DNA from: Thiocapsa marina 5811
GTDB taxonomy: Bacteria; Pseudomonadota; Gammaproteobacteria; Chromatiales; Chromatiaceae
Assembly (NCBI RefSeq): GCF_000223985.1
Contig: NZ_AFWV01000003.1
Coordinates: forward strand, 124,001 to 188,000
Direction: 5' to 3'
DNA length: 64,000 nt
Every line of letters starts with the position of its first letter. Position 1 is the stretch's first letter. The position numbers and the translations under genes are program-made. Shown one piece after another: positions 19,513 through 58,315 of this stretch. The notes under the pieces were generated by a model, which worked only from the letters and a program-made list of their open reading frames with translations, did no database searches and was not told the origin of the DNA.

Positions 19513-20454
19513 ATGCACCACCTCGACCGACGAAAAACCGATCGCGGACAGGCCGTTATAACACTCTTGGCCGTTACTCTGTTCACCGTAGCCGGTGTAG
19601 GATTAGGATTCTGGATCGGGCATTACCAATATTTGACGACAGTTGTCGACAACAATGCTCAGGCAGCGCTTGTACCCCGCTCCTCGCCGGCACCCGCACT
19701 TCCCCCCCCCGCTTCCGATCCCGCCACCTCCGACGACGTCGATGCGATCGCCGCCCGCGTCGGCGAAATGCAAGCCGAGCTCTTTAGGCTCAACGCGCTC
19801 GGCGAACGACTTGTTCAGATGTCCGGACTGAACCCCGAAGAATTCGATTTCGAGAATCCCCCTCCGCGAGGCGGTGCCGAGGACGGCCCGGCACGAGACT
19901 TTACGATCCGCGAGATCGCCAGCGAGCTCGGCAGCATGGTCAGCCTGGTGCAGGATCGCAAGCGCAAGCTCGAGGTCATCGAAGACGTCATCATGGACAA
20001 GGATCTCACTGCGCAGGCGATGCCCTCGGGTTGGCCGGTCCGAGCCGGTTATGTCACCTCGAGATTCGGTTTCCGGGTGCATCCCATCAAGAAGAAGCGC
20101 CTCTTTCACGAGGGCGTCGACTTCGCAAGTCCTCGCGGCACCGCAATCGTAGCGGTCGCCGACGGTGTCGTGACCTTCAGCGGCCGCAAGGGCGGATACG
20201 GGCGCACGGTCGACATCCGGCATGTCAACGGGCTGGTCACGCGTTATGCCCACAACCAGGACAACCTGGTCAAAGAAGGTCAGATGGTCCGGCAAGGACA
20301 GAAAATCGCGACGGTCGGATCCTCCGGGACTGCAACCGGCCCGCATGTCCATTTCGAGGTTCTCAAGGACGGCAAGGCGGTCGATCCCTTCCGTTACATC
20401 GACCGTCAGCCGAGGCCTGTACTGGCCGGCGCGTCCGAGGATCAACCCGGTTAA
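19513..20454 (+). CDS. M23-family (LytM-type) peptidoglycan endopeptidase
   Basis: The 313-residue protein has one N-terminal membrane anchor (about residues 14-36), a proline-rich linker, a predicted coiled coil (about residues 75-100 and 130-165) and a C-terminal M23 domain. Both zinc motifs are intact: FHEGVDF (H-x-x-x-D) and HVHFEV (H-x-H). It is therefore expected to cut peptidoglycan cross-links in the periplasm rather than act as a degenerate activator such as EnvC. It lies just before secA, where enterobacteria have secM. Its TAA stop lies in the terminal repeat of a dispersed element. Confidence 0.92.
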   Translation: MHHLDRRKTDRGQAVITLLAVTLFTVAGVGLGFWIGHYQYLTTVVDNNAQAALVPRSSPAPALPPPASDPATSDDVDAIAARVGEMQAELFRLNALGERLVQMSGLNPEEFDFENPPPRGGAEDGPARDFTIREIASELGSMVSLVQDRKRKLEVIEDVIMDKDLTAQAMPSGWPVRAGYVTSRFGFRVHPIKKKRLFHEGVDFASPRGTAIVAVADGVVTFSGRKGGYGRTVDIRHVNGLVTRYAHNQDNLVKEGQMVRQGQKIATVGSSGTATGPHVHFEVLKDGKAVDPFRYIDRQPRPVLAGASEDQPG

Positions 20455-20538
20455 ACCGCGCTTAGCGCGGTATGCGATGTTTTTTGGAAGGGATCGGCCC
20501 TGGCGGACTTGACGGCCGCTGGAGCCGGCGGGGTTTAA
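20451..20538 (-). repeat. Dispersed palindromic element, type B (copy 1)
   Basis: The element is bounded by TTAAACCGCGC on the left and a decayed GGCGGGGTTTAA on the right. Its interior matches the reverse complement of the copies at 32839 and 58226, including the ATCGCATACCGCGC block and the GTCGTCAAGTCTGCC block (with substitutions). A small CCGCGC/GCGCGG hairpin lies beside the M23 gene stop, which the element supplies. Together with the next copy it forms a composite unit. Confidence 0.8.
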
Positions 20539-20557
20539 GAGAATAAAAAATATGATA

Positions 20558-20643
20558 TTAAATCGCGTCCCGGCTAAGGGCCGTGGATTCAGCAAATGCC
20601 GAGCCCACTCGAAAATTTAGCATCTCGCTCTGAATGCGGTTTA
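20558..20643 (+). repeat. Dispersed palindromic element, type A (copy 2)
   Basis: The element starts TTAAATCGCGTCCC and ends GAATGCGGTTTA. The interior (CTAAGGGCCGTGGAT, then CACTCGAAAAT) matches the copy at 25859 closely. A 19-base AT-rich linker separates it from the type B copy to its left, so the pair is the reverse complement of the units at 32733 and 58128. Confidence 0.8.
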
Positions 20644-20761
20644 GGGGCTCGGGGACATGCTGAATCGGTCGGGGTGCTTGGATCTGCCTGCGGTTTGTGC
20701 AGGCAATAGCCGCAGATCCCGACCCCGGGCGCGCTTCCGATGCGGCCTGCGGTTGTCGTGG

Positions 20762-20786
20762 AATTCCGGTATCATGCCGGAATTTT
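20762..20786 (+). promoter_or_regulatory. Hairpin just upstream of secA
   Basis: AATTCCGG and CCGGAATT form a perfect 8-base stem with a seven-base loop followed by TT, ending 24 bases before the secA start. It could attenuate transcription or mask translation initiation; the role is inferred. Confidence 0.4.
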
Positions 20787-20810
20787 CCCGACAGGTCTCA
20801 AACGTATCCG

Positions 20811-23657
<2,847 letters not shown>

Positions 23658-23665
23658 GCGACGCC

Positions 23666-24907
23666 ATGACGTCGACGGACGCGCATACCTCGGATCCGGT
23701 CCCGTCGGACGACTCCTGGCTCCCGGTCGAGGGCGTGCGCCTGGCCGCGGGGGCCGCCGGCATTCGCTATCAGGGGCGTGACGATCTCCTCGTCCTGGAG
23801 CTCGTCGGCGGCAGTCGATGCGCGGCCGTTTTCACACGCAACGCCTTCTGTGCCGCGCCCGTGCGGCTCGCGAAGACCCATTTGGGCCGAACTGCGCCGC
23901 GTTACCTGCTGATCAATGCGGGCAATGCCAACGCGGGCACAGGTCGGCGCGGTCTGGCGGATGCCGAGTCGAGCTGTGCGGCGCTCGCCGCAATCGGCGA
24001 GTGTTCCGCGCAGGAGGTTCTACCCTTTTCCACGGGCGTCATCGGCGAGCACCTGCCTGTGGATCGTATCGCGGCGGCACTGCCCGAGCTGCTCGGGCGC
24101 TTGGATGCAGCGGCCTGGCCGGCCGCCGCGCGGGCCATCATGACCACGGACCGGGTGCCCAAGCTGGTCTCGCGTCGCTTCGAGATCGACGGGCACACCG
24201 CCTCGATCACCGGGATCGCCAAGGGCGCCGGGATGATCTGTCCGAACATGGCGACCATGCTCGCCTTCATCGCGACGGATGCGGCTGTTGCACCGGATGT
24301 GCTCCAGGCGTGTCTGGGCTCCGCGGTCGCCCGGTCATTCAATGCCATCACGGTCGACGGCGATACCTCGACCAACGATGCCTGCGTGCTGGTCGCAACC
24401 GGTGTCTGCGGGAATGCGGAAATCCGCAACGGCGCATCGCCGCAATTGGATGTGCTCCAGACCGCCGTCGATGCGGTCTGCCTCGAGCTGGCGACCGCGA
24501 TCGTTCGGGATGCCGAGGGCGCAACCAAGCTGGTGACCGTCGAGGTCGAGGGTGCGGCCGACGTCGAGGAGGCTCGCGCCGTGGCCTACACCATCGCCCA
24601 TTCCCCCTTGGTGAAGACGGCGCTCTTTGCGTCCGATCCCAACTGGGGCCGCATCTTGGCCGCGGTCGGGCGTGCGGGTCTTCGGGATCTCGATATCGAT
24701 CGGATTCGAATCCACCTCGGCGAGGTCTTGATCGTCGATGCCGGGGGGCGTGCACCGGACTATACGGAGGAGGCCGGCGCCGCCGTCATGGCCGAGCCCG
24801 AGATCCTGATCCGCGTCTCGCTTGGCCGGGGTCCGGGCCAAGCGCAGATCTTGACCTGCGATCTGTCCTACGATTACGTTCGGATCAACGCCGAATACCG
24901 CAGTTGA
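23666..24907 (+). CDS. argJ: Bifunctional glutamate N-acetyltransferase/ornithine acetyltransferase ArgJ
   Basis: ArgJ moves the acetyl group from N-acetylornithine to glutamate in the cyclic arginine pathway and can also use acetyl-CoA. The 413-residue precursor has the self-cleavage site in [18 protein letters not shown] (between alanine and threonine of ATM), the [11 protein letters not shown] oxyanion region and the usual C-terminus [11 protein letters not shown]. An ATG at 23636, inside secA, would add ten residues; I prefer the ATG at 23666. The argJ next to secA arrangement is common in gammaproteobacteria. Confidence 0.95.
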
Positions 24908-25854
24908 GCAGCGACCTGGTTCATGTGATGGTCGGCGCGATCTCCGACTCGGCGGGACGTGTGCTGGTCACGAAACGCCCGGATCATGTCCATCAGGGCG
25001 GGCTGTGGGAGTTTCCGGGCGGTAAGCTCGAGCCCGGCGAGTCGCCCGAGCAGGGTCTGGCGCGCGAGCTGGCCGAGGAGCTCGGCATCGAGGTCCGCGA
25101 CAGCCGTCCGCTGATCCGTATCCGGCACCATTACGGCGATCGGCATGTCCTGCTCGATGTCAGGCGTGTCGAGTCGTACGCGGGCATCCCGGCCGGTTTG
25201 GAAGGGCAGCCTCTCGCCTGGCAATCCCCCGAGACCCTGGATCCCGGCTGCTTTCCTGCTGCCGATCGTCCCATCATCACCGCCCTGCGCCTGCCGGCTT
25301 GCATCTTGATCACGGGTTCCGACCCGCTTGAGCCGGAGGTCTTTCTGGCGCGGATCGCGCAAGCCGTCGCGGGGGGAATCAAGCTTGTTCAACTGCGTGC
25401 ACATGGACTGAATCAAGGGGCCTACGGGGATTTGGCGCGGCGCGCCTTCGTGCTGTGCGCGCAAGGCGGTGCACGTCTTCTTCTAAATCGCGATCCGGAC
25501 GAGACGCTCGGCATCCCGCGTCACGGTCTGCACCTCGGCGGGCAGGCTCTCGCCCGACTGACCGAGCGTCCGGGTCGGCCCGACGACCTGGTCGGAGCCT
25601 CCTGTCACGCGGCCGATGATCTTCTGCGCGCGGCGCGTCTCGGGCTCGACTACGCGCTGCTCTCGCCGGTCCAGCCGACTGCATCCCACCCCGAGGCCGA
25701 GCCGCTCGGCTGGCAGCGCTTTGCCGAGTTGACGGATGCGGCGACGCTTCCGGTTTATGCGCTGGGCGGCGTGACCGGAGCGGATCTGGATGTCGCCCGC
25801 GAGCATGGCGCACAGGGCGTGGCGGGGATTCGAGGCTTTTGGTCGATCGATTGA
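24904..25854 (+). CDS. Nudix hydrolase (MutT-type) fused to a ThiE-like domain
   Basis: The 316-residue protein has an N-terminal Nudix domain (about residues 1-130) with a complete Nudix box, [24 protein letters not shown], as in MutT, which removes 8-oxo-dGTP. The C-terminal half (about residues 135-316) resembles thiamine phosphate synthase, with [24 protein letters not shown] and [11 protein letters not shown]. Several ThiE substrate residues are altered, for example QLRDK to QLRAH. The same fusion is known in many gammaproteobacteria. A TTG at 24904 overlaps the argJ stop (TTGA); an ATG at 24928 is possible but would cut into the first strand of the fold. Confidence 0.88.
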
Positions 25855-25858
25855 TCGG

Positions 25859-25944
25859 TTAAACCGCGTCCCCGCTAAGGGCCGTGGATGCACCAAATGT
25901 CGATCTCACTCGAAAATGCGCATCTTGCACCGGACGCGGTTTAA
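25859..25944 (+). repeat. Dispersed palindromic element, type A (copy 3)
   Basis: This is the clearest copy: TTAAACCGCGTCC at the left and GGACGCGGTTTAA at the right form a near-perfect terminal inverted repeat, with CTAAGGGCCGTGGATGCACC inside. The right end contains the TAA stop of the minus-strand yacG; the left end lies four bases after the Nudix gene stop. Confidence 0.88.
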
Positions 25945-26141
25945 TGTGCCCCCGGCGAATGCTCGCTGATGGGCGAATCATCGTCGAGATCGTCTTCGGT
26001 GCCCGGTATCCGGCGATTCTCGTCCAGCCACTCGCCTAGATCGACCAAACGGCAGCGCTCGCTGCAGAAGGGGCGCCACGGCGATTGCGGACCCCAAACA
26101 ACAGACTTGCCGCAACGCGGGCAGGAGACGGTCGTGGCCAT
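25941..26141 (-). CDS. yacG: DNA gyrase inhibitor YacG
   Basis: YacG is a small zinc protein that binds GyrB and inhibits gyrase in E. coli. The 66-residue product has the four-cysteine zinc site (CPRCGKSVVW and CSERCRLVDLGEWL) and an acidic C-terminal tail. It is bracketed by repeat elements: its stop lies in the copy at 25859-25944 and its ATG is two bases from the copy at 26144-26229. No clear ribosome-binding site precedes the ATG. Confidence 0.93.
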   Translation of the reverse strand: MATTVSCPRCGKSVVWGPQSPWRPFCSERCRLVDLGEWLDENRRIPGTEDDLDDDSPISEHSPGAH

Positions 26142-26143
26142 GG

Positions 26144-26229
26144 CTAAACCGCGTCCCGAGCGAAAATCGATGCTGTGTCGGCGAGCGCAGCGCGGTGCAT
26201 GCCGATGAATCCGTGCCGGACGCGGTTCA
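26144..26229. repeat. Dispersed palindromic element, divergent type A (copy 4)
   Basis: CTAAACCGCGTCCC at the left and GGACGCGGTTCAG at the right match the family ends and the length is the usual 86 bases. The interior (GAGCGAAAATCGATGC and CGCAGCGCGG) is diverged from the other copies. It directly abuts the yacG start codon. Confidence 0.75.
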
Positions 26230-26249
26230 GGAATGCATCCGAATCATCT

Positions 26250-26333
26250 GAACCACGTCCACGGATGAGGCGTTTGGCGGGTGCCCGGGCAGCGAGCGAG
26301 TCGGAACAGTGCATGGTGTAAAGGACGTGCTTC
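26250..26333. repeat. Decayed dispersed element at the zapD 3' end (copy 5)
   Basis: GAACCACGTCC and GGACGTGCTTC form an 11-base inverted repeat with one mismatch, 84 bases from end to end, matching the family's length and terminal pattern. The right end contains part of the zapD stop codon. The interior does not obviously match the other copies. Confidence 0.55.
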
Positions 26334-27099
26334 AAAAGACGCAGCAGGTGAGGTTGAAGGGGATGTTTTCCGGGATCTGAGACGGCCGTCCTTGAGGCCC
26401 GGTCTTCATGAAACGGATACTGAAGCGGCTCTTGTGTCCGCTGATCTCGGGATAGAGTGCGCCGGTCCCGTTGATGCCGACCCGCACCATCTGCGCGGGT
26501 GCCTGCACGTCGAGCGCCTCTTGGAAGAAACCGCCCTCTGCGAGCACCTGGCGCGGCGATGCGCTGGTTCGGGCCAGCGAGAGGACGAGACGGATCGCCC
26601 GCTCCGCCGGTCGCAGATCCTGGAGCCAATGGTCGAGCCGTGCCTGCCTGATCTCCGGTACCTGGATGAGCCAATGATGAAACTGCGGTAGATCGAAGCT
26701 GCAGGCCCCGCCCGGAATGCTGCTGCGCTGGGCGACGCTCTTGAGAAGATCGTCCTCGCGGGCGATCTGCCCGATGGGTCCGGACAGGCGATGGACGCCG
26801 CCGACGGCATCCGCAAGGTCGCCGAGGACCTGCTCCAAAGCCCGCGGATCCACCCCCGGCTGATCCCCGAAACGCTTGAGCGTGGCCATGTTGCGATCGA
26901 GCTCTTTGAGCAGCTCGGTCTTGACGTCCGCGCGCGCGGTCACAGAGGCGATGTCGAGCAAGGTCTCGACGGCCACTCGGGTTGCCCAAGCATCGTACTG
27001 AGGCGCGAAATAGTTGAGTCGCTCGAACAGATGCTCGATCCGCAGGAAGGTGCGGACGCGCTCGTTCAGCGGATGCTCGAAGGTCATCAAAGTCGACAC
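26332..27099 (-). CDS. zapD: Cell division protein ZapD
   Basis: ZapD (YacF) bundles FtsZ filaments and binds the FtsZ C-terminal peptide. The 255-residue protein starts with the family segment FEHPLNERVRTFLRIEHLF and carries SRIPGG-type loops (SSIPGGACSFDLPQFHHWL) and the C-terminal RFMKTGPQGRPSQIPENIPFNLTCC. The start is a GTG at 27099 or an ATG four codons later. In relatives zapD often sits with coaE and pilD; here neither is present, and the 215 bases upstream hold nothing recognisable. Confidence 0.93.
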   Translation of the reverse strand: MSTLMTFEHPLNERVRTFLRIEHLFERLNYFAPQYDAWATRVAVETLLDIASVTARADVKTELLKELDRNMATLKRFGDQPGVDPRALEQVLGDLADAVGGVHRLSGPIGQIAREDDLLKSVAQRSSIPGGACSFDLPQFHHWLIQVPEIRQARLDHWLQDLRPAERAIRLVLSLARTSASPRQVLAEGGFFQEALDVQAPAQMVRVGINGTGALYPEISGHKSRFSIRFMKTGPQGRPSQIPENIPFNLTCCVF

Positions 27100-31560: not shown

Positions 31561-31591
31561 GGTTGGGCACGCTGCGCTTTGCCCAACCTAC
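31561..31591. repeat. REP-like palindrome downstream of ruvA
   Basis: GGTTGGGCA and TGCCCAACC flank a ten-base centre (CGCTGCGCTT) and are followed by TAC. Palindromes built on GTTGGGC...GCCCAAC are common intergenic repeats in proteobacteria. It lies 99 bases after ruvA and could limit transcription between ruvA and glcE. It differs from the TAAACCGCG element family. Confidence 0.55.
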
Positions 31592-31638
31592 CTGTTCATG
31601 TTGATTTTGAATCGTTCCTAAACGACAAGGGGAGACCG

Positions 31639-32736
31639 TTGAGCAACGACCAGACCGCCGAGCTGCAAGAGCGGGTCCGCCACGCGGCCGAGGCCTCATC
31701 GCCCCTTCGCTTGGAGGGCAGCGGCACCAAGTCGACCCTCGGGCGTGCGGTCGACGGCGAGGTCTTGTCGCTGTCCGGGCATACCGGGATCCTCAACTAT
31801 CAGCCCAAGGAGTTGGTCGTCACCGCGCGCTGCGGCACGCCGTTGAGCGCGATCGAGTCCGCGCTCGCCGAGCAGGGGCAGATGCTCCCGTTCGAGCCGC
31901 CGCATTTCGCCGATGCCTCGGGCGGGATCGACGCGGGCTCCGGCGCGACCCTAGGCGGAACCATTGCCTGCGGTCTCTCCGGTCCCGCGAGGCCCTACGC
32001 GGGCTCGGCACGAGACCTGGTGCTCGGCACACGCGTGCTGACCGGGCGCGGCGAGGTCCTGCGTTTCGGCGGCGAGGTGATGAAGAACGTCGCGGGCTAC
32101 GACATCTCGCGGCTGATGACCGGGGCCTTCGGGACACTCGGTGTCCTGCTCGACATCAGCGTGAAGGTGCTCCCCATCCCGACGACCGGCCGGACACTGG
32201 TGCAGACCTGCTCGCCGGCGGAGGCGCTCGGACGCATGACGGGTTGGGCTGCGCAGCCGCTTCCGATCAGCGCGACCTGCTACGACGGCGAGCAGCTTTG
32301 GGTTCGTTTGTCCGGCAACCACGGCGGTGTTTCGGCCGCCGCCGAGCGCATCGGGGGCGAGGCGGTCGACGATGCCGAGGCACTGGTCTTCTGGCGCGAT
32401 CGGATCCGCGAGCAGGGCCATCCCTTCTTTTCCGGTGATGCGCCCTTGTGGCGCTTGTCGGTCCCGCCGACCGTCGCGCCCCTGGCGTTGCCGGGCGCGC
32501 AGCTGATCGAGTGGAGCGGGGCGCAACGCTGGCTGCGCAGCGATGCCGAGACCGAGGTCATCCGTGCGGCGGTCAGCTCCGTCGGCGGGCATGCCACGCT
32601 CTTTCGCGGAGGGGATCGCCACTCGGAGGTCTTCCACCCGATCCCGGCCGGACTCATGACACTACATCGCGAGATGAAACGGGCCTTCGATCCGAACGGC
32701 ATCCTGAACCCCGGTCGCCTCTACGCGACCCTCTAA
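31639..32736 (+). CDS. glcE: Glycolate oxidase FAD-binding subunit GlcE
   Basis: GlcE is a subunit of the membrane-associated glycolate dehydrogenase GlcDEF, which oxidises glycolate to glyoxylate. The 365-residue product has an FAD_binding_4 domain (GSGATLGGTIACGLSGPARPYAGSARDLVLG, then KNVAGYDISRLMTGAFGTLGVL) and ends DPNGILNPGRLY. I start at a TTG at 31639 because AAGGGGAGA lies at the right distance; the frame is open 20 codons upstream. GlcD is absent. Its TAA stop is the first three bases of a dispersed element. Confidence 0.92.
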   Translation: MSNDQTAELQERVRHAAEASSPLRLEGSGTKSTLGRAVDGEVLSLSGHTGILNYQPKELVVTARCGTPLSAIESALAEQGQMLPFEPPHFADASGGIDAGSGATLGGTIACGLSGPARPYAGSARDLVLGTRVLTGRGEVLRFGGEVMKNVAGYDISRLMTGAFGTLGVLLDISVKVLPIPTTGRTLVQTCSPAEALGRMTGWAAQPLPISATCYDGEQLWVRLSGNHGGVSAAAERIGGEAVDDAEALVFWRDRIREQGHPFFSGDAPLWRLSVPPTVAPLALPGAQLIEWSGAQRWLRSDAETEVIRAAVSSVGGHATLFRGGDRHSEVFHPIPAGLMTLHREMKRAFDPNGILNPGRLYATL

Positions 32737-32818
32737 ACCGCGTCCAGAGCGACATGCGTCATTTTCATTTTGTGTTTGGCTTCGGAGATGGCCTCGATCT
32801 CGGTGAGACGCGGTTTAG
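32733..32818 (-). repeat. Dispersed palindromic element, diverged type A (copy 6)
   Basis: CTAAACCGCGTCCAGAGCGA at the left and GAGACGCGGTTTAG at the right are family ends. The first 45 bases resemble the copy at 58128 (CCGCGTCCA, AGCGA, ATGC, TTTTC); the rest has diverged. It supplies the glcE stop and forms the left half of a composite unit. Confidence 0.72.
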
Positions 32819-32838
32819 AATTTAATTTTTTGAATACG

Positions 32839-32924
32839 TTAAACCGCGCCCGCTCCAACGGTCGTCAAGTCTGCCGGGGCCGATCCCATCCACAAACATC
32901 GCATACCGCGCTGGGCGCGGTTTA
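32839..32924 (+). repeat. Dispersed palindromic element, type B (copy 7)
   Basis: TTAAACCGCGCC at the left and GGGCGCGGTTTA at the right bound an interior nearly identical to the copy at 58226: CTCCAACGGTCGTCAAGTCT, CCCATCCA, AACATCGCATACCGCGC. A 20-base AT-rich linker separates it from copy 6. Its right end runs into the AGGAG ribosome-binding site of glcF. Confidence 0.88.
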
Positions 32925-32934
32925 GGAGCGAGGC

Positions 32935-34143
32935 ATGCAGACCGAGATCCTGCCCGAGTTTCTGAGCACGCAGGCGGGTCGCGAGGCCGATGCCATCCTT
33001 CGCTCCTGCGTCCACTGTGGCTTCTGCACCGCGACCTGTCCGACCTATCAGCTTCTCGGCGACGAGCTCGACGGTCCGCGCGGGCGGATCTACCAGATCA
33101 AGCTGGTCATGGAGGGTCAAGCGCCGACCCGCATCACTCAGCAGCATCTCGATCGCTGTCTGACCTGTCGCTCCTGCGAGACGACCTGCCCGTCCGGCGT
33201 GCGGTACGCGCGCCTGCTCGACATCGGGCGGCACCTGGTCGAGGAGCGCGTCGAGCGGCCGGTCTTCGAGCGGCTGCTGCGCTGGGCGCTCGTCAAAACC
33301 GTACCCTATCCGTCGCGCTTCGGCCCCTTGATACGGGTTGGGCACTGGGTGAAACCGCTGCTGCCGGCCAAGCTCAAGGCGAAGCTGCCGACACCGCGCC
33401 CGGCCGGTGCTTGGCCGAAGCCTGCCGGGCGTCGTCGGATGCTGGTGCTCGGCGGCTGCGTCCAGTCGGTCGCCACACCCAAGACCAATGCCGCGGCGGC
33501 GCGCGTGCTGGCGCGGCTCGGGATCGATCTGATCGAGTCGCCCGCTGCCGGCTGTTGCGGTGCCGCCGCCTATCATCTGAACGCGCTCGAGGACGGGCTC
33601 GATGCGATGCGCCGCAATATCGACGCTTGGTGGCCCGAGATCGAGGCGGGCTGCGAGGCGATCCTGGTGACCGCGAGCGGATGCGGTGCCATGGTGAAGG
33701 ACTATGGCCATGCGCTGGCCGGGGATCCCGCCTATGCCGAGCGGGCGGCGCGTGTGGCGGCCTTGGCGCGGGATCCGATCGAGGTCGTCGCGAGCCTGGA
33801 TCTCGCGCCGATCGGCTCGCCGGGTGAAGGTCGCAAGGTTGCCTTTCACGCCCCCTGCACCCTGCAGCACGGCCAGCAGCTCAAGCAGGTCGTGGAGCCG
33901 GTCCTGTCGCGACTCGGGTTTGCGATGACGCCCGTGCCGGACGGCCATCTGTGCTGCGGTTCCGCCGGGACCTATTCGATCACGCAGCCCGAGCTCTCTG
34001 CACGTCTGCTCGTGAACAAGGTCGATGCGCTGGAGTCCGGCCGGCCCGAGCTGATCGCGACGGCCAACATCGGCTGCCAGCTCCAGATCGGCGGCGGCAC
34101 CGAGATCCCCGTCGTCCATTGGCTCGAGCTGCTCGACGGCTGA
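32935..34143 (+). CDS. glcF: Glycolate oxidase iron-sulfur subunit GlcF
   Basis: GlcF is the iron-sulfur subunit that passes electrons from glycolate oxidation towards the quinone pool. The 402-residue product has two 4Fe-4S motifs (CVHCGFCTATCP and CLTCRSCETTCP) and two CCG domains (GCCGAAAYH and CCGSAGTYS). The ATG at 32935 follows AGGAGCGAGGC. The 198-base gap to glcE is filled by a composite repeat, so the two genes may be uncoupled. Confidence 0.95.
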   Translation: MQTEILPEFLSTQAGREADAILRSCVHCGFCTATCPTYQLLGDELDGPRGRIYQIKLVMEGQAPTRITQQHLDRCLTCRSCETTCPSGVRYARLLDIGRHLVEERVERPVFERLLRWALVKTVPYPSRFGPLIRVGHWVKPLLPAKLKAKLPTPRPAGAWPKPAGRRRMLVLGGCVQSVATPKTNAAAARVLARLGIDLIESPAAGCCGAAAYHLNALEDGLDAMRRNIDAWWPEIEAGCEAILVTASGCGAMVKDYGHALAGDPAYAERAARVAALARDPIEVVASLDLAPIGSPGEGRKVAFHAPCTLQHGQQLKQVVEPVLSRLGFAMTPVPDGHLCCGSAGTYSITQPELSARLLVNKVDALESGRPELIATANIGCQLQIGGGTEIPVVHWLELLDG

Positions 34144-34222
34144 GCCGCGCTCGGAGCACTCGGTGTAGGTTTGCGCTCAACCCGTCCTTGGCGCTCGACA
34201 TGCCCTCGGCGGGCGCGGCTCA
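34141..34222. repeat. Possible further dispersed element after glcF (copy 10)
   Basis: TGAGCCGCGC and GCGCGGCTCA form a perfect 10-base inverted repeat, 82 bases from end to end, close to the family length. The ends differ from the family consensus at two positions and the interior does not match. The left end contains the glcF stop codon, as in the other copies, but chance remains possible. Confidence 0.4.
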
Positions 34223-34249
34223 GGTGGAACAAGCAACGAGGATCACAGC

Positions 34250-38843: not shown

Positions 38844-38844
38844 C

Positions 38845-50420: not shown

Positions 50421-50828
50421 GTGGAGTACGCTAACCTTAGCGTCGACGAAATTCAGCAGCAGCTTGCCGAAATCGAAAGCAGCAAGGCTGAGCTGAAGCG
50501 CGCGCTGGAAGTGCGCCGTCAAGAAGCGAAATCGGAAGTCGCTCAACAGATCAAGGGCTTGATCGCCCAATACGGCTACGAATTGGAAGAAATCCTGCCT
50601 CTGGTGGAATCCAAGCGTCGACGTGTGGGCGGATCGGCCAGGCGCTCCGTCGCCGGGGGGCGGCAGTATACGCGATACATCGATCCGGAGAATACCGACA
50701 ACGTCTACGTGCGTGGTGTCCTTCCCGGCTGGATGAAGCAGAAGATGGCCGAGCAGGGTTACGACCCTTCGTCCAAGGTGGATCGCGAAGCCTTCAAAAC
50801 GAACTATCTCCAGGCGGTCGACGCCTGA
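50421..50828 (+). CDS. H-NS-family nucleoid protein
   Basis: The 135-residue product has an N-terminal coiled-coil oligomerisation region (about residues 1-60; EIQQQLAEIESSKAELKRALEVRRQEA) and a C-terminal DNA-binding domain (YTRYIDPENTDNVYVRGVLPGWMKQKMAEQGYDP). These proteins silence AT-rich and horizontally acquired DNA. I chose the GTG at 50421, seven bases after GGAGGT; a TTG five codons upstream overlaps that site. Confidence 0.92.
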   Translation: MEYANLSVDEIQQQLAEIESSKAELKRALEVRRQEAKSEVAQQIKGLIAQYGYELEEILPLVESKRRRVGGSARRSVAGGRQYTRYIDPENTDNVYVRGVLPGWMKQKMAEQGYDPSSKVDREAFKTNYLQAVDA

Positions 50829-51206
50829 GCCGCGATTGATCCGGCGATTGGCCGGGTACCATCTCGGCATCCATTTCGGTATCGAGCGGTCATAGGTCGG
50901 CCGCAAGAGCCGTTTGCAGCGTTGGATGTCGAGATGGAATGTCGGGGCGATTGCAGATCCGGAAACCCGGACATTTCAGCGGACTCCTTAAGGTCCAGAT
51001 GCGAAAAAGCGCTCGGAGCAAAGAGGTCGTCGACGGCGCTGGCTTTCATTGAGCGCATCGCGTAGACTGCGATTCTCGCATCATCCGGTCGATGCGTCGT
51101 CTCGCGGCTGACCCCACCTTTTTCCAAGGCTTCATCCTCGAACGCCTCTTTTCTGCCTAGGCCGGTCCCGTCTTCGCACGGTTTTAGGCCGGTTTCAGGA
51201 GTTTTC
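50829..51206. other. 378-base leader region of rhlE
   Basis: No gene is apparent. The last part has pyrimidine-rich stretches and CAGGAG just before the rhlE ATG. Long untranslated leaders are usual for DEAD-box helicase genes and can be cold-regulated, but no specific element was identified. Confidence 0.45.
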
Positions 51207-52496
51207 ATGTCATTCGATTCACTCGGCCTTCAGGCCGACTTGCTGCGTGCCGTGGCAACGCAGCGTTATGCCCGCCCGACCCCCATTCAACTGCAGGCAA
51301 TACCCGAGATTTTGGCCGGTCATGACCTGCTTGCCGGCGCTCAAACCGGGACGGGCAAGACCGCGGCCTTCGTGCTGCCGCTCTTGCAGCGTCTCTCCGA
51401 GAAGGGTCATCCGCAACGTCATCCGCGTGCACTGATCTTGACGCCGACGCGCGAGCTGGCGGCTCAGGTCGGCGAGCGCGTGCACGCCTACGGCCTGCAC
51501 CTGCCTTTACGCTCGGCGATCGTCTTCGGCGGGGTCGGCATGCAGCCGCAGGTCAACCAGCTGCAGCGCGGTGTCGATGTTTTGATCGCGACCCCGGGGC
51601 GCCTGCTCGATCATGCCGGCCGACGCACCGTCGATCTGTCGCGCGTCGAGATCCTCGTCCTGGACGAGGCCGATCGTATGTTGGACATGGGTTTTATCCA
51701 CGACATCCGGCGCATCATTCAGCTGCTTCCCGAGCGGCGCCAGAACCTCCTGTTCTCCGCAACCTACTCCGACGACATCCGCAGGCTGGCGGACGGGCTT
51801 CTGAAGCGCCCGAAGCTGATCGAGGTTGCGCGGCGCAATACGGCCGCCGAGACGGTCGTTCAGGCGGCGCATCCGGTGGACAAGGCCCGCAAGCGCGATC
51901 TGCTCGCCCACCTCTTCCGTCGCGAAGGTTGGCATCAGGTCTTGGTCTTTACGCGTACCAAGGCGGGTGCCAATCGGCTGGTGGAGCATCTCGGGCGAGA
52001 AGGTATCACGGCCGCCGCCATCCACGGCAACAAGAGTCAATCGGCCCGAACGCGCGCCTTGGACGATTTCAAACGCGGCAGCGTCCGCGCATTGGTGGCG
52101 ACCGATATCGCCGCGCGGGGATTGGATATCGTCGATCTGCCCCAAGTGGTGAACTTCGAGCTGCCGAATGTCGCCGAGGACTATGTCCATCGTATCGGGC
52201 GCACCGGTCGAGCGGGCGCCGGCGGTAAGGCGCTGTCTCTTGTCAGCCATGACGAACGGGGTTTGCTGCAGGGAATTCAGCGCCTCCTGCGTCGAGAGAT
52301 TGCGTTGGATCCCGTAGTCGGTTTCGAACCGTCATTGGTCCCTCCGGAATCCGAGCCCGATCGAAGCCTCGGCGGTCGCCGCGACTCGCGCGGACCGAGC
52401 CGACCGGCGCGCAAGCCGGCCGCCGCCGCTGCTTCGCCGGCGGGGAAGCGTCCCTGGCGTGGCGGCGACAGGCGCGGGCGCGGCGCGACGCCATAG
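51207..52496 (+). CDS. rhlE: DEAD-box RNA helicase RhlE
   Basis: The 429-residue product has a Q motif ([11 protein letters not shown]), Walker [18 protein letters not shown], the DEAD box [16 protein letters not shown], and motif [13 protein letters not shown] basic tail rich in R, G, P and A (about residues 380-429) follows and probably binds RNA. It is expected to unwind RNA in ribosome assembly or decay. The ATG at 51207 follows CAGGAG. An RRM protein gene follows. Confidence 0.94.
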
Positions 52497-52550
52497 TTTC
52501 CGATGACCATTGCGCGGCGGGGCTTGCGTATCCGGTCCCGCCATTGCTTC

Positions 52551-52569
52551 GTCTCCAACGGTTGGAGAC
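52551..52569. promoter_or_regulatory. Perfect 8-base hairpin between rhlE and the RRM gene
   Basis: GTCTCCAA and TTGGAGAC pair across the triloop CGG. No T-tract follows. It lies 54 bases after rhlE and 82 bases before the RRM gene; an mRNA-processing or thermosensing role is possible but not shown. Confidence 0.35.
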
Positions 52570-52651
52570 AAAGACTGTCGAATCAGTTGCGTATTGATTT
52601 TTCGACCGTTCTCTCTTTCTCTTCAATGCGCTCTCACGGAACTCTTGAATA

Positions 52652-52924
52652 ATGAATATTTACGTTGGCAACCTGGCCTACGGCGTGACCCAAGACGAGC
52701 TGAAGACCGCATTCTCCGCTTACGGCGAGATTTCGAGCGTGAACTTGATCACCGACAAGTTCACCGGTGAGTCCAAAGGCTTCGGCTTCGTCGAGATGCC
52801 GAACAACTCCGAGGCCGATGCCGCCATCAAGGGGCTGAACGAGACGCCGCTGAAGGGCCGTAACTTGAAGGTCAACCAAGCCAAGCCGCGCGGCGAGCGC
52901 CCCTCGCGCGGGCCCCGCTGGTAG
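52652..52924 (+). CDS. Single-RRM RNA-binding protein
   Basis: The 90-residue protein is one RNA recognition motif with RNP2 NIYVGNLAYG and RNP1 KGFGFVEM, plus a short basic tail (RGERPSRGPRW). Such proteins are common next to DEAD-box helicases in proteobacteria and cyanobacteria and are often cold-induced. The leader upstream is T-rich and lacks a strong ribosome-binding site. Confidence 0.94.
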   Translation: MNIYVGNLAYGVTQDELKTAFSAYGEISSVNLITDKFTGESKGFGFVEMPNNSEADAAIKGLNETPLKGRNLKVNQAKPRGERPSRGPRW

Positions 52925-53029
52925 GCGTACTTCGGCTTCGGGGCGTTGCCCCGAGGTCGTGTTCGAGCGCGGCCTCGAGCACCTCGATAGAATTGACCAC
53001 TCTCCTTCACTGCTCCCCGCGTACCCCCG

Positions 53030-54865
53030 ATGTCGCCCCACCTGGTCTATCGCGTTCGTCCCGCAGCACCGCAAGCACATCTGTTTCACGTCGAGATCGA
53101 AATCCCGGGCTCGGGCGCCGACCTCGTCGAGCTGTCTCTGCCCGCGTGGATTCCGGGCAGCTATATGATCAGGGACTTCGCGAGGAATATCCTGAAGCTC
53201 GTCGCCGAATCAACCGACGCGATGCCGCTCAAGTGCCGAAAGCGCGACAAACAGACCTGGGTCTGCCGGACGGGGGGCAGTGCGATCAGGGTGCGTTATC
53301 AGGTCTATGCGTGGGATCTCTCTGTTCGCGGGGCGCACCTCGATACGACGCACGCCTACTTCAACGGGGCAGCTCTCCTGATGCGGGTTCACGGCATGGA
53401 TGGCCGACCCTGTTCGGTCGATCTAATTCCGCCCGATGGAGACGTCGATGCTGAATGGGCGGTCGCGACCAGCCTCGCGCCGGAGCAGATCGACGGGCGT
53501 GGTTTCGGATCTTATCGTGCCGAGAATTACGACGACCTGATCGATCATCCCGTCGAGATGGGGTGTTTCGAGCAGGTCGGTTTCGATCTCGCGGGTGTGC
53601 CGCATCGTCTGGCGATTACGGGCCGCCAGTATGCCGACAAGCCCCGACTCGAGAGCGATCTCTTGCGCATTTGCGGCGAGCACGCGGCCCTGTTCGGCGA
53701 ATTGCCGATCGACCGCTACCTCTTTCTCGTGACGGCCGTGGGCGAGGGCTACGGCGGATTGGAGCATCGGTTCTCGACAAGCTTGCTCTGTTCACGCAAC
53801 GATTTGCCTCATCCGACCGACGCGAAGCGCACCGATGCATACGTCCGCTTCTTGGGGCTTTGCAGCCACGAATACTTCCATCTCTGGCATGTGAAGCGCA
53901 TTCGGCCATCTGCGCTGATGGATGGCAGGCTGGATCGGGAGCTGCACACGCGAACGCTGTGGGCCTTCGAAGGCATCACATCCTACTACGACGAGCTCGC
54001 CTTGGTGCGCAGCGGTTGTATCGATCCCCGGGCCTATCTCGGCCTGCTTGCCGCGACGATGACCCGCCTGGTACGAACCCCGGGACGCAGAGTGCAGACC
54101 TTGGCCGAGTCGAGCTTCGATGCCTGGACCAAGTTCTACAAACAAGACGAAAATGCACCCAATGCGATCGTGAGTTATTACGTCAAGGGCGCCCTGGTCG
54201 CCCTAGCGTTGGACTTGACCATTCGCGCGGGGACGCAGTGCAGGACCGCGCTCGATGACGTCATGCGAGCACTCTGGAGCCGCTATGGCTGCACCGGGGT
54301 TGGCGTTCCGGAGCGCGGGATCGAGGCCATCGCGTCCGAGGTGTCGGGGCTCGATCTCGACGCCTTCTTTGCGACCGCGCTGGACGGGACCACGGAGCTC
54401 GATCTCGAGCCCCTCTTGAGCACGGTCGGGGTCGGTATGCGGCTGCGTCCCTCGGATGGCCCGAAGGACCAGGGCGGGTGTCCGGAGTCTTTCGATCATC
54501 GAGAGGCGCGTCCGACGCTCGATCTGCGCCTGCGTCCGGGTGCCTCCGAGGCGATCGTCCAGAACGTGATCCGCGACGGGCCGGGCGAGCGCGCGGGCAT
54601 CGCACCCGGAGATGTCGTGGTCGCGGTCGACGGCCTGCGTGCCACCGCGGAGAATTTGGAGTCCTTGGTCGCGCGCGCTGTGGCCCCGGTGAGGGTCCAC
54701 CTGTTTCGGCGCGACGAGTTGATCGAGGTGCTCGCCGTTCCCGCGCCGGCCCGTCCCGACACCTGTGACTTGATGCTCTTGGATGCGGTGCCGCCGCAGG
54801 TGCTCGAGGCGCGCACGCGTTGGCTCGCCAGCGTCGCCGGCGATCGCCGGGATTGCGCTCCGTGA
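53030..54865 (+). CDS. M61-family metallopeptidase with PDZ domain
   Basis: The 611-residue product has the M61 N-terminal beta region (WIPGSYMIRDFARNI), the zinc motif HEYFHLWHVKRIRP (H-E-x-x-H) with the downstream glutamate in WAFEGITSYYDEL, and a C-terminal PDZ domain (about residues 505-585). Family members are aminopeptidases that prefer glycine or alanine. No signal peptide is visible, so it is probably cytoplasmic. No clear ribosome-binding site precedes the ATG. The stop overlaps the birA start. Confidence 0.9.
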   Translation: MSPHLVYRVRPAAPQAHLFHVEIEIPGSGADLVELSLPAWIPGSYMIRDFARNILKLVAESTDAMPLKCRKRDKQTWVCRTGGSAIRVRYQVYAWDLSVRGAHLDTTHAYFNGAALLMRVHGMDGRPCSVDLIPPDGDVDAEWAVATSLAPEQIDGRGFGSYRAENYDDLIDHPVEMGCFEQVGFDLAGVPHRLAITGRQYADKPRLESDLLRICGEHAALFGELPIDRYLFLVTAVGEGYGGLEHRFSTSLLCSRNDLPHPTDAKRTDAYVRFLGLCSHEYFHLWHVKRIRPSALMDGRLDRELHTRTLWAFEGITSYYDELALVRSGCIDPRAYLGLLAATMTRLVRTPGRRVQTLAESSFDAWTKFYKQDENAPNAIVSYYVKGALVALALDLTIRAGTQCRTALDDVMRALWSRYGCTGVGVPERGIEAIASEVSGLDLDAFFATALDGTTELDLEPLLSTVGVGMRLRPSDGPKDQGGCPESFDHREARPTLDLRLRPGASEAIVQNVIRDGPGERAGIAPGDVVVAVDGLRATAENLESLVARAVAPVRVHLFRRDELIEVLAVPAPARPDTCDLMLLDAVPPQVLEARTRWLASVAGDRRDCAP

Positions 54866-55713
54866 TTCCCGGCTCAGGGGGTCATGGCTCGGGCGCGCCC
54901 CCCGATCCTCTGGACGCGGAACGAATCCTGGCGGCACTGTCCCCCGGTGCTCGCAAAGCAATCGCGCGTCTGGAGATCCACACCGAGATCGACTCGACCA
55001 ACCGCGCCCTGATGCGCGATGCGGCGACGGGCGCGCCCTGCGGAACGCTGTATCTCGCCGAGAGCCAAAGCGCCGGACGGGGGCGTCTCGGGCGCCTCTG
55101 GGTATCGCCTTTCGGGGCCAATCTCTATCTCTCCATGCTCTGGCGATACAGCGCGCCGCCGGCGACGCTGGGCGGCTTCAGCTTGGTTGCGGGGGCCGTC
55201 GTTGCGGACGTGCTGCGCCGGATCGGTGCAGAGGGTCTCGCGCTGAAATGGCCGAACGATCTGCTCTGGGATCGGCGCAAGCTCGGCGGGATGCTCGTCG
55301 AGGTCGCCGGCGGGCTCCGAGGCCCCTCGGCCTTGGTGGCGGGGATCGGAATCAATGTGCGGATGACGCCCGATCACGGACGGGCCATCGACCAGCCTTG
55401 GGTCGATCTTGCGCAAGTGCTCGGAGAATCGGGGGTGGATCGCAACACCTTGGCGGCACTGGTCGTCGAAGCCCTGATCGATGCCTTCGAGCGCTTCGGT
55501 CGGGAGGGTCTGCCCCCGTTTCTTGCGCTCTGGAACGCATTCGATCTCTTTCGCGGCGAGCAGGTGCGCCTCCTGCTTGCGGACCATGAGATCCGGGGCC
55601 GGGTGCTCGGGATCGCGTCGGACGGCTCCTTGCGGCTCGAGACCGCCGACGGCGAGCGATGTTTCCATGCAGGAGAAGTCAGTTTGAGACACGAGGTCGA
55701 AGACGCGCAATGA
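54862..55713 (+). CDS. birA: Biotin--[acetyl-CoA-carboxylase] ligase
   Basis: The 283-residue enzyme activates biotin and attaches it to the carboxylase carrier protein. It shows EIDSTNRALM, the biotin loop SAGRGRLGRLWVSPFGANLYLSM, LKWPNDLLWDRRKLGGMLVE and the C-terminal SH3-like domain. The N-terminal helix-turn-helix of E. coli BirA is absent, so it is not expected to repress bio genes itself. The GTG start overlaps the M61 gene; the stop overlaps coaX. Confidence 0.93.
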   Translation: MIPGSGGHGSGAPPDPLDAERILAALSPGARKAIARLEIHTEIDSTNRALMRDAATGAPCGTLYLAESQSAGRGRLGRLWVSPFGANLYLSMLWRYSAPPATLGGFSLVAGAVVADVLRRIGAEGLALKWPNDLLWDRRKLGGMLVEVAGGLRGPSALVAGIGINVRMTPDHGRAIDQPWVDLAQVLGESGVDRNTLAALVVEALIDAFERFGREGLPPFLALWNAFDLFRGEQVRLLLADHEIRGRVLGIASDGSLRLETADGERCFHAGEVSLRHEVEDAQ

Positions 55714-56462
55714 TGCTGCTGCTTGATATCGGAAATACCAACCTGCGCTGGGCACTCTCCGACGGCGGCCCTCCCGGCGAGGTTCGGGTCGTGCGCCACG
55801 GCGGGGCAGTGCCGATCGACCTTCTGGCCGACTGGGAGCTGCTGGATGCGCCCGAGCGTGTGGTTGCGAGCAACGTCGGCGGTGCATCGGTCGCCGCGGC
55901 GATCGGTCGTGCGACCCGGGCTTATTGGGGGCTGGACCTCGACCTCGTGCAGACCCGAGCCCGCTTCGGTGCGCTGAGCATCGCGTATCCCGAGCCGGGG
56001 CGTTTCGGTGTCGACCGCTGGCTCGCCTTGGTTGCCGCCCATCGCCTGGTTCCCGAAGCGGTGCTGGTCGTGGATGCCGGAACCGCGGCCACCTTCGATC
56101 TCCTGCTTGCCGACGGACGTCATCTCGGCGGCTTGATTCTCCCCGGGGTCGAGATGATGCGTGCGAGCCTTTTGGCCGGAACCCTGATCCCGCGGATCGC
56201 CTCCGAGCCGACCGACGAGCCTTGGGCGGCCGATACGGGACCGGCCGTCGCGGCCGGCAGCCTTCAGGCAATCGGGGCCCTGGCGACGCGGCTCTACGAT
56301 CGGCTCGAGCGGGAGACGCAGACACCCCCCGCATTGATCCTGACCGGCGGCGACGCCGAACGCCTGATCCCGGCGATGGATCGGCCGGCTCGGGTCGTAC
56401 CCGATCTGGTCTTGCGCGGACTCTTCGAGGTCGTCTCGGGCGAAGCCTCGGACATCGGTTGA
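55710..56462 (+). CDS. coaX: Type III pantothenate kinase CoaX
   Basis: CoaX phosphorylates pantothenate in the first step of coenzyme A synthesis. The 250-residue ASKHA-fold product has LLLDIGNTNLRWAL, GVDRWLALVAAH, VVDAGTAATFDLL and GGLILPGVEMMRASLL. The ATG at 55710 overlaps the birA stop and the next codon is also ATG. The birA-coaX pairing is common in proteobacteria. Confidence 0.94.
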   Translation: MMLLLDIGNTNLRWALSDGGPPGEVRVVRHGGAVPIDLLADWELLDAPERVVASNVGGASVAAAIGRATRAYWGLDLDLVQTRARFGALSIAYPEPGRFGVDRWLALVAAHRLVPEAVLVVDAGTAATFDLLLADGRHLGGLILPGVEMMRASLLAGTLIPRIASEPTDEPWAADTGPAVAAGSLQAIGALATRLYDRLERETQTPPALILTGGDAERLIPAMDRPARVVPDLVLRGLFEVVSGEASDIG

Positions 56463-56540
56463 GTGTCCGCTTTTTCGGGCGGCCCCGATCGAGCGCTTAG
56501 GCGTGCGGGCTGTACGGACGGTCGAAGGCAGGTCGGTATT

Positions 56541-56617
56541 TGGCGCCCTCGACAGGATTTGAACCTGTGACCTACCGCTTAGGAGGCGATCGCTCTATCC
56601 AACTGAGCTACGAGGGC
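56541..56617 (-). tRNA. tRNA-Arg (anticodon CCU)
   Basis: Read on the minus strand, the gene begins GCCCTCG and ends CGAGGGC-G-CCA, with the CCA encoded. The D-arm is GCTCAGTTGGATAGAGC. The anticodon arm is ATCGC-CTCCTAA-GCGGT, giving anticodon CCU for AGG codons. The T-arm is ACAGG-TTCAAAT-CCTGT. It is 77 bases long and convergent with coaX. Confidence 0.95.
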
Positions 56618-56762
56618 GTGCTGTGGTATGTCGGGGACTTTAGTGTACCCCGGGGAATAACCGCAGGCACCGGTCAAGATCCCGATTCAGGCCGATATCG
56701 GTTGAAGTCCATCCGCAAAGCGGTGATTATTGAAGCGTCATCAAGTCGATACGTCCATCTCC

Positions 56763-58130
56763 ATGACCAATCTGGCCCAGCCCGACGTCACCATCTTCCT
56801 CGATCACGCCGGCGTGATTCGGCGGGCGGCGCTGTCGCCTGCGTTCCGCGGCGAGGCGCTGGATGCCTGGGTCGGGCGTCCTTGGGCCGAGACGGTCGAC
56901 TCTTTCGGAAGCGAGAGCCTGCGGAGCCTCGTCGACGACGCGCGGGACTCGGGTGTCTCGGCCTTCAGGCAGGTCAACCAGATCTTTCCATCCGGATTGC
57001 GTCTTCCGATCGAGTATACCGCGGTGCGTTTGGGAGGCGATGCCGGGCTGGTTGCTATCGGCCGCAGTCTCCAGGCCGTGACCGAGCTGCAGACGCGCCT
57101 TGTGGAGGCGCAGCAGACGATGGAGCGCGACTATTGGAAGCTGCGCGAGGTCGAGACCCGGTATCGGCTCTTGTTCGGATCCTCGAGCGATGCGGTGATT
57201 CTGTTGCGAGTCACGGGGCTGGCGATCCAGGACATCAACCCGGCCGCGTCGCGCGCCCTCGGCGGCTCCACCGTAGCGCGTCGGCCTCTGGTCGGCAAAG
57301 ACTTTTCCGGCGAGTTGGTCGATGGCGAGCGTGACCTCTTTCACGCGATGCTCCGACGACTCGACGAGCAAGGCAGCGCCCCGGGGATACTGCTGCACCT
57401 CGGCGTGGAGCGAGCGGCTTGGATGGTGCGAGCGTCGCGGCTCGCGTCCGAGGCCGGTTCACTGTACCTTCTTCAATTGACCGCCACCGAGGCCGCATCG
57501 ACGTCTCGGCAGTCTGCCGAAGGCGAGTTCGCCGACGTCCTGATCGAGCGCTTGCCCGACGGATTCGTCGTGACCGATCGAGACGGCTTGATCCACTGGG
57601 TCAACCCGGCCTTCCTCGACCTCGTTCAAATGCCGACCGCGGGCGGGGTGCTGCAACAAAGCCTGGGGCTTTGGCTCGATCGACCGGGCGCGGATATGAG
57701 CGTGTTGTTGACGACGATCGCCCGACTGGGCGTCGTTCGTCCGTTCTCGACCAGGCTCCGCGGCGAGCTCGGCGGCGAGACGGAGGTGGAGATCTCGGCG
57801 GCCGGCGATTTGGACACCGAGCCGTCGTCGATCGGAATCTTGTTCCGGGATGTCGGCAGGCGCCTGCCGCGACACGACAACGACCAGCGTCTCGGCGGAC
57901 GCTTGAACGCCCTGAGCGGTCGGATCGGCAAAGGTCCCTTGCGTGCGCTGGTGGACGAGGCGATCAGCGTGATGGAGCAGCACTATATCGAGGAGGCGTT
58001 GGAACTCACGCGCGGTAATCGTACCGCAACCGCCGACCTGCTCGGGTTGAGTCGTCAGAGTCTCTACGTCAAGCTCAAGCGGTACGGTATGGATCAGGAC
58101 ACGGTTACGGATCCGGGAAGTCGAACCTAG
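56763..58130 (+). CDS. ppsR: PpsR/CrtJ-family photosynthesis regulator, cysteine-free
   Basis: PpsR proteins bind TGT-N12-ACA sites and control bacteriochlorophyll, carotenoid and light-harvesting genes. The 455-residue product has an N-terminal PAS-like region, a coiled-coil Q-linker (ELQTRLVEAQQTMERDYWKL), two further PAS domains and a Fis-type helix-turn-helix (ALELTRGNRTATADLLGLSRQSLYVKLKRYGM). It contains no cysteine; the helix-turn-helix cysteine of CrtJ/PpsR is tyrosine here (EQHYIEEAL). I prefer the ATG at 56763 over a TTG at 56730. The bacteriophytochrome gene follows, after a composite repeat that supplies its TAG stop. Confidence 0.9.
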   Translation: MTNLAQPDVTIFLDHAGVIRRAALSPAFRGEALDAWVGRPWAETVDSFGSESLRSLVDDARDSGVSAFRQVNQIFPSGLRLPIEYTAVRLGGDAGLVAIGRSLQAVTELQTRLVEAQQTMERDYWKLREVETRYRLLFGSSSDAVILLRVTGLAIQDINPAASRALGGSTVARRPLVGKDFSGELVDGERDLFHAMLRRLDEQGSAPGILLHLGVERAAWMVRASRLASEAGSLYLLQLTATEAASTSRQSAEGEFADVLIERLPDGFVVTDRDGLIHWVNPAFLDLVQMPTAGGVLQQSLGLWLDRPGADMSVLLTTIARLGVVRPFSTRLRGELGGETEVEISAAGDLDTEPSSIGILFRDVGRRLPRHDNDQRLGGRLNALSGRIGKGPLRALVDEAISVMEQHYIEEALELTRGNRTATADLLGLSRQSLYVKLKRYGMDQDTVTDPGSRT

Positions 58131-58212
58131 ACCGCGTCCACAGCGAAATGCTCGTTTTCGAGTGAGTTCGACGTTTGGTGCATCCACAACCCTTAGCGGG
58201 GATGCGGTTTAA
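58128..58212 (-). repeat. Dispersed palindromic element, type A (copy 8)
   Basis: TAGACCGCGTCC at the left and GGATGCGGTTTAA at the right bound the reverse complement of the type A interior (CACTCGAAAA... read here as TTTTCGAGTG, and GGTGCATCCAC). The first three bases are the stop codon of the cysteine-free ppsR. Confidence 0.83.
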
Positions 58213-58225
58213 GATCGTATAATTT

Positions 58226-58315
58226 TCAAACCGCGCCGACTCCAACGGTCGTCAAGTCTGCCGGGGCCGCCGACCCCATCCAAGAACATCGCATACCGCG
58301 CTGGGCGCGGTTTAA
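58226..58315 (+). repeat. Dispersed palindromic element, type B (copy 9)
   Basis: TCAAACCGCGCC at the left and GGGCGCGGTTTAA at the right bound an interior nearly identical to the copy at 32839, with a three-base insertion. A 13-base AT-rich linker separates it from copy 8. It ends 19 bases before the bphP start. Confidence 0.88.

Follow-up and report, generated by a model that had tools for sequence, protein, structure and literature searches.

The closest described counterpart of the element reported here is RUP of Streptococcus pneumoniae, considered together with IS630-Spn1. Our element was studied in a window of 64,000 nucleotides (C60:124001-188000) of the genome of Thiocapsa marina 5811 (G000; 5.59 Mb, 62 contigs), and is a composite of about 193 bp built of a module A, a linker and a module B. 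As RUP is described in the available excerpts of two publications (PMC2229807, PMC3049150), both it and the Thiocapsa composite are short intergenic repeats of about 100 copies with IS630-like terminal inverted repeats (TIRs) and a TA target; both have been found inserted in insertion sequences (IS), and for both mobilization in trans has been proposed from the ends. RUP, however, is a simple AT-rich unit of 107 bp, whereas the composite has two GC-rich modules with four conserved tips, a YTAR target and half of its copies in stop codons. The two are likened by mechanism, not by sequence: we would call the composite family comparable to RUP with IS630-Spn1, and membership in RUP is not claimed.

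Other described systems share part of this design. Correia/NEMIS of Neisseria, in the excerpt of PMC2229807 from which the comparison is drawn, are likewise intergenic miniature inverted-repeat transposable elements (MITEs) with TIRs, terminal TA, filled and empty sites and long stem-loops when transcribed, but they measure 107 or 155 bp, have one pair of ends and have no IS630 partner established in that description. BOX of S. pneumoniae is likewise a modular mobile repeat whose parts also occur alone, although its modules are boxA, boxB and boxC, its proposed partner is ISSpn2 and the excerpted account gives it no four-tip design (PMC3049150). IS630 of Shigella sonnei likewise inserts at TA and prefers CTAG (Tenzen and Ohtsubo 1991, cited in PMC2170065); it is an autonomous IS, whereas the Thiocapsa element would be a non-coding derivative of a Chromatiaceae relative. 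REPINs with their RAYT likewise consist of two inverted hairpin modules and a spacer in many copies, but rely on a Y1 transposase, while the composite has the ends of a DDE-type IS and a TA duplication. The four conserved tips and the association with stop codons are unusual in the composite family.

The family very probably consists of non-autonomous MITEs of the IS630/Tc1-mariner type, whose mobile unit is the A-linker-B composite with the ends of an IS630-family IS. The DDE transposase of a Chromatiaceae IS of about 1.28 kb would move the composite in trans, the outer 32 bp of the composite serving as the TIRs of that IS. A first-pass annotation of the window had listed nine intergenic copies of an element of about 85 bases, with two interior types and no transposase nearby. 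All nine copies exist, but profiles give a different unit: eight copies are halves of four composites of about 193 bp, three good (20451 with 20558, 32733 with 32839, 58128 with 58226) and one decayed (26144 with 26250), and the ninth, at 25859, is a solo A. The two interior kinds are real, yet they are modules A and B of one unit. No transposase was recognised among the window proteins scanned, as had been noted.

The profiles were built from an alignment of 23 genome copies, which resolved into module A, linker and module B in fixed order and orientation. Module A is a hairpin of about 86 bp (TAAACCGCGTCC...GGACGCGGTTTAA), the AT-rich linker measures about 23 bp in this alignment, and module B is again a hairpin of about 86 bp (TTAAACCGCGCC...GGCGCGGTTTAA). 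A search of G000 with the copy at 32839 reported 41 matches and 320 first-look candidates, and in the flanks of 30 fetched loci an A-type copy and a conserved AT-rich linker preceded most B-type copies. Near-matches to TAAACCGCG with at most one mismatch numbered 23, against a shuffle mean of 10.3, and 23 was reached in none of 100 shuffles. The elements of the window and the stop codons at their tips are as follows.

20451..20644, minus strand: composite, probable MITE, 194 bp (A 20558-20644, linker 20539-20557, B 20451-20538; profile E 3e-51)
20452..20454, plus strand: TAA at the tip, the stop codon of an M23 peptidase gene (19513-20454)
25859..25944, minus strand: solo A module, 86 bp (A profile E 1.6e-22)
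26144..26335, plus strand: decayed composite of about 192 bp (weak profile match, E 0.0034; extent set by the orthologues)
26332..26334, minus strand: TGA at the decayed tip, the stop codon of zapD (26332-27099, minus strand)
32733..32925, plus strand: composite, probable MITE, 193 bp (A 32733-32818, linker 32819-32838, B 32839-32925; profile E 6e-55)
32734..32736, plus strand: TAA at the tip, the stop codon of a FAD-oxidase gene (31579-32736); TAG in the empty alleles
58127..58315, plus strand: composite, probable MITE, 189 bp (A 58127-58212, linker 58213-58225, B 58226-58315; profile E 4e-54)
58128..58130, plus strand: TAG (a changed TAA) at the tip, the stop codon of a PAS/HTH_8 gene (56730-58130)

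Syntenic stretches were compared in ten congeners, with a marker-stretch identity of 88-89% in seven and 76-77% in three, and filled as well as empty alleles were seen among them. The composite at 32733 (site S1), which lies between the FAD-oxidase gene and an Fe-S (CCG-domain) gene (glcE/glcF-like), is filled in G000, G003 and G010 as C-TA[AACCGCG...CGCGGTT]TA-G, and the site is empty in eight other congeners, reading CTAG in G001, G002, G005, G006, G007, G008 and G009 and TTAC in G004. Both ends are clean, in the form Y-TA[AACCGCG..CGCGGTT]TA-R, at S1, S4 (CTAA), S5 (CTAG, CTAA), S7 (TTAG) and S8 (CTAG). Insertion at YTAR, often CTAG, duplicates TA. A sample of 1.2 Mb of G000 (bases 1-400000 of each of the contigs C60, C61 and C62; 21% of the genome) was used for a copy census, and there 46 of the 49 copies with both ends intact have YTA..TAR flanks, while YTAR makes up about 20% of non-coding NTAN.

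Three further window sites are polymorphic as well. The 20451 site is filled in G001 and G010 and reads CCTAACC in G002 and G007, in both of which the M23 peptidase gene stops at a TAG in the same frame. The decayed composite lies between zapD and a gene whose start is 2 bp past the element; its orthologues measure 191-192 bp in G002, G003, G004, G008 and G010 and are shortened in G001 and G007, and the site is empty (CTAG/CTAA) in G005, G006 and G009, where the stop codon of zapD, in the same frame, is TAA in G005 and TAG in the other two. In place of the solo at 25859, G002 has a copy of 194 bp, G007 one of 132 bp and G010 a short B-like copy. Copies fixed at syntenic positions in all relatives, which would have spoken against mobility, were thus not what the comparison gave. 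Additionally, G001 carries a double insert of 385 bp, about two composites long, at one TTAG site (L055:9583-9967). An integron attC origin was set aside since the copies are dispersed and duplicate TA.

The putative partner was found among DDE_3 proteins. Fifteen genomes were searched, and 13 of them had matches, 54 in all; 30 of these loci were scanned with the tip motif and the profiles, 27 also for any TA-flanked inverted repeat, and of the 24 left unread many are further copies of types that were read. The sole IS bracketed by composite ends among the 30 was L109 in G006, of 1,277 bp, as C-TA[AACC...]TA-G; in this genome the composite consensus has three short matches, of 57 bp at best. 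The L109 transposase found 49 loci in named genomes, ends were sought in 22, and both ends were readable in five Chromatiaceae: G006, Allochromatium humboldtianum, Imhoffiella purpurea, Halochromatium glycolicum and Thiodictyon. All five IS copies (L109, L130, L131, L133, L154) have composite-type ends and YTA..TAR flanks. They measure 1,274-1,277 bp, with the Thiodictyon copy at 1,031 bp, and encode an IS630-family transposase (NCBIfam NF033545; Pfam DDE_3 and HTH_33). The outer 32 bp of the composite are identical to the IS ends at 24-28 of 32 positions, a fit equalled by 0-2 of 20,000 interior shuffles, whereas the inner tips agree at 17-18 of 32, which 1,284 and 3,199 of 20,000 shuffles matched. 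The composite consensus picks up the IS ends directly, and in G001 a decayed copy of this IS (L184) has a composite inserted at a CTAG within its right end. The TA duplication together with outer ends matching an IS630-family IS argues for MITEs of the IS630/Tc1-mariner type and not for REPINs.

A REPIN-like nature had been proposed next to that of a MITE, and two inverted hairpin modules with a spacer in high copy number are what a REPIN or REP element mobilized by a RAYT (a Y1 single-strand transposase) would look like. There are also eight Y1_Tnp matches in G000. None of these eight loci is bracketed by composite ends, however, in stretches of up to 1.5 kb on each side; beside one of them (L035) there is a single element copy, about 1.3 kb off and on one side only. 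Y1_Tnp also occurs in all 14 relatives searched, including G006 and G009, which have no B-module match. With a clean TA duplication and IS630 ends in addition, we consider a RAYT origin exceedingly improbable. Of the two kinds of source first envisaged, a RAYT or an IS with the same ends, it is the IS that was found.

Several further observations concern the IS630 elements themselves. Other IS630 groups of the genus (L105, L118, L122, L124 and L106-like loci) have unrelated ends (GTGCTGCAG..., TACCTCATATAGG...), and the first of these groups, with GTGCTGCAG ends, also lies in CTA..TAG. Locus L111, where a MITE lies beside a decayed IS, was rejected as partner, its IS falling in a group with different ends. 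Four of the five IS copies (L109, L130, L131, L154) carry a CCCCTTTTTTG run, near a change of transposase frame in G006 and Imhoffiella, which looks like programmed frameshifting. The Halochromatium transposase is a single frame of 382 amino acids without this run. Searches with the L109 transposase across the class (E 1e-25, 369 genomes) and with that of Halochromatium in 26 further genomes of the family (E 1e-20) gave no match, and neither run contained a known positive.

Could A and B instead be two separately mobile MITEs, with the composite a frequent joint passenger? Each module has two tips, solos exist (S8 in G001, for example, against CTAG in G008), a short copy at C60:324410 is common to G007, G010 and G000, and the inner tips are as conserved as the outer ones. 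In 75 full composites the four AACCGCG tips have a conservation of 0.94-0.99, against 0.79 elsewhere, and for three other genera, where 20 fetched places gave 15 composites, the values are 0.95-1.0 for the tips and 0.74 and 0.81 for the bodies of the modules. Yet the 32-bp match to the IS is confined to the outer ends, the inner tips being no better than shuffles past the first bases, and the linker and the order of modules are kept in other genera. Solos also have composite counterparts at the corresponding site in congeners. For twelve solo sites the joined flanks served as queries against six congeners, and the results were read by hand from the coordinates. At three (C60:292194, C62:357493 and C60:252405) at least one congener has an insert of about 186-191 bp and at least one other has none of that size; at C60:292194 the long insert is present in five congeners. 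S2 and S10 show a similar mix of insert lengths. We regard separate mobility of A and B as unlikely. Under the composite-MITE reading, several solo A or B modules would be remnants of composites that lost one module, plausibly by deletion between directly repeated tips about 108 bp apart (A-left/B-left or A-right/B-right). At one locus of G000 (L019, C62:211352-211519) a second B module comes directly after a composite, with a TTTAAA junction common to both.

Not everything agrees with a composite moved by this IS. Among the sites compared, S3 fits except for one changed flanking base (GTAG in the empty allele), S6 fits at the right end only, its left TA being lost, S9 fits but for the decay of its left tip, S2 is not clean, and at S10 a clean empty allele is lacking. 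Nine of the twelve solo sites are mixed, incomplete or uninformative as to a passage from composite to solo, and the short C60:324410 insert shared by G007 and G010 means that a solo may itself have moved or have been passed down in that form. Conservation across genera extends to all four tips, yet only the outer two are full IS ends. The genome of T. marina 5811, a draft, has no close partner transposase (best 28% identity), and no intact one was found in 11 other B-module-matched genomes searched, only the relic in G001; of these genomes without an intact partner, G001 and G004 are single contigs. Among the genomes tested, IS copies or fragments and composites occur together only in a Thiocystis metagenome-assembled genome, with 36 element matches, and in Allochromatium palmeri, with 4. 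Coordinate arithmetic places the IS ends themselves among the matches in A. humboldtianum and Halochromatium, and Imhoffiella, Rhabdochromatium marinum and Thiorhodospira gave no match to the composite consensus. Mutual exclusion of IS and MITE was considered and dropped, since both occur in the Thiocystis genome and in A. palmeri.

At E < 1e-3 the census counted 102 merged loci, of which 40 are full composites, so that the anticipated further copies of the genome are indeed numerous. Extrapolated from these 1.2 Mb, G000 would hold about 475 copies, although C60, C61 and C62 are the three largest contigs and the sample is therefore not random. Full-length elements are typically 189-196 bp, dispersed and without a transposase gene. 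Genes were called with a simple purpose-written caller (921 genes, 81% coding), and 101 of the 102 copies overlap a called gene by at most 25 bp, in keeping with the intergenic position first noted. In the 99 copies with two neighbours the contexts were 33 (++), 31 (--), 31 convergent and 4 divergent, while the 918 adjacent gene pairs numbered 319 (++), 346 (--), 127 convergent and 126 divergent.

The B-module consensus matched 13 of 74 genomes: nine of the 11 in the genus, counting G000 (G005 with two partial matches only; none in G006 and G009), four of 35 in the rest of the family (G025, G028, G040, G042) and no genome among 28 more distant ones. The A-linker-B layout is also present in other genera. 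Nearest neighbours among 35 composites of G000 share 72-91% identity, so this is an old family with no current burst in G000, one that nevertheless transposed after the congeners diverged. Genome-wide, module A has at least two interior types, a GAGTGAGCTCGACG type and a CATTTTCATTTTGTGT type, both also found in G042, which places the split of types before the genus. Plasmid records gave no match, viral contigs gave no match to one exact pattern, and a search of the PDB by sequence gave no hit. The literature search found the family named in no title or abstract opening among the papers listed. G008 is listed at 10.4 Mb, about twice the size of most congeners, with a first contig of 5.07 Mb.

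In 48 of the 102 copies a TAA (44), TGA (3) or TAG (1) at the element end is the stop codon of the neighbouring gene. The far end could be located in 28 of these 48 and not in the other 20; it retains TA in 23 and has CA in five. All 23 with TA continue in the frame of the gene as TAA or TAG, never as a Tyr codon, so those insertions hit real stop codons and not coding sequence. The old TAG or TAA stop is visible in congeners at three window sites (S1, S4 and S9). Because the element begins with A right after TA, a gene ends in TAA after insertion into its TAG or TAA, in either orientation; an insertion at YTAR that duplicates TA within a stop codon would thereby hand the gene a new TAA, and such insertions would be tolerated. 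Elements occupy 48 of 168 stop-codon YTAR sites (29%) against 51 of 872 other intergenic ones (6%), a ratio that is soft because genes were called only approximately and some uncalled genes are counted as intergenic. In convergent regions 20 elements lie at stop codons and 11 elsewhere, against 39 and 132 free YTAR sites (Fisher p 9e-6); in (--) regions the excess is weaker (p 0.014).

Either targeting or selection may cause this excess. Within the MITE reading, insertion at YTAR may be random and only harmless or useful insertions survive, for which we see about an even chance. Elements are scarce in divergent regions, which hold 4 of 99 of them but 126 of 918 gene pairs; an insertion at a stop codon is silent, since TAA is restored by the tip; and a hairpin behind the stop could protect the mRNA, as has been described for REP sequences. 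However, the excess persists in convergent regions, where no promoter is hit, although terminators there could still suffer. A more speculative alternative, to which we lean less than we doubt it, is that this MITE uses all four tips and homes to stop codons. Its inner tips might be functional, either as additional contacts for the transposase or as hairpins that it requires; insertion might be steered by the transposase or by the state of DNA and mRNA where translation ends, and the tip-encoded TAA might make it silent from either side.

The hairpins may form in mRNA behind the stop codon, and the elements could also be read as immobile RNA elements, structural or regulatory, at the 3' ends of mRNAs. 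Two modules have stable predicted folds (z about -3.2 and -3.6; a third, of A2 type, reaches only -1.6), the position is right behind stop codons and the tips are conserved across genera. Against this stand the empty alleles with TA duplication and the IS ends, and stem covariation is limited to one or two cells, a measure that cannot separate sequence from stem, as the IS end already dictates the outer tip. Consensus folding, the first run of which mixed A and B copies, yielded little more than the terminal stem. Neither is there an orientation bias, the 28 codirectional composites lying 16 in the same and 12 in the opposite orientation. We give hardly any credence to a non-mobile RNA element, while co-option of single copies as RNA elements is possible.

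Two further features of the window deserve mention. A weaker candidate at 34141 had been listed with the family, but the A profile covers only 19 positions there (E 0.081, for a 400-base stretch), which does not support it as a member; at 34141-34226, behind the Fe-S gene, lies a GC-rich hairpin ending in TGAGCCGCG..CGCGGCTCA, and a similar one is present in the same place in G002, G007, G008 and G010. A tRNA gene lies at 56544-56617 on the minus strand, and Rfam at gathering scores found only tRNA in the window.

If the reading of the family as IS630/Tc1-mariner-type MITEs is correct, it would link a heavy bacterial MITE load to an identifiable IS630 partner, and a mobile element that lands in a stop codon and returns a stop would have a simple route to harmlessness. 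Should homing to stop codons be true, this would be a built-in harmlessness device permitting hundreds of copies per genome. The stop-codon excess is open to testing in vitro, which would separate target choice from selection, and the four conserved tips pose a concrete puzzle about the recognition or retention of elements this short. It also matters for annotation that the element encodes many gene 3' ends in the genus.

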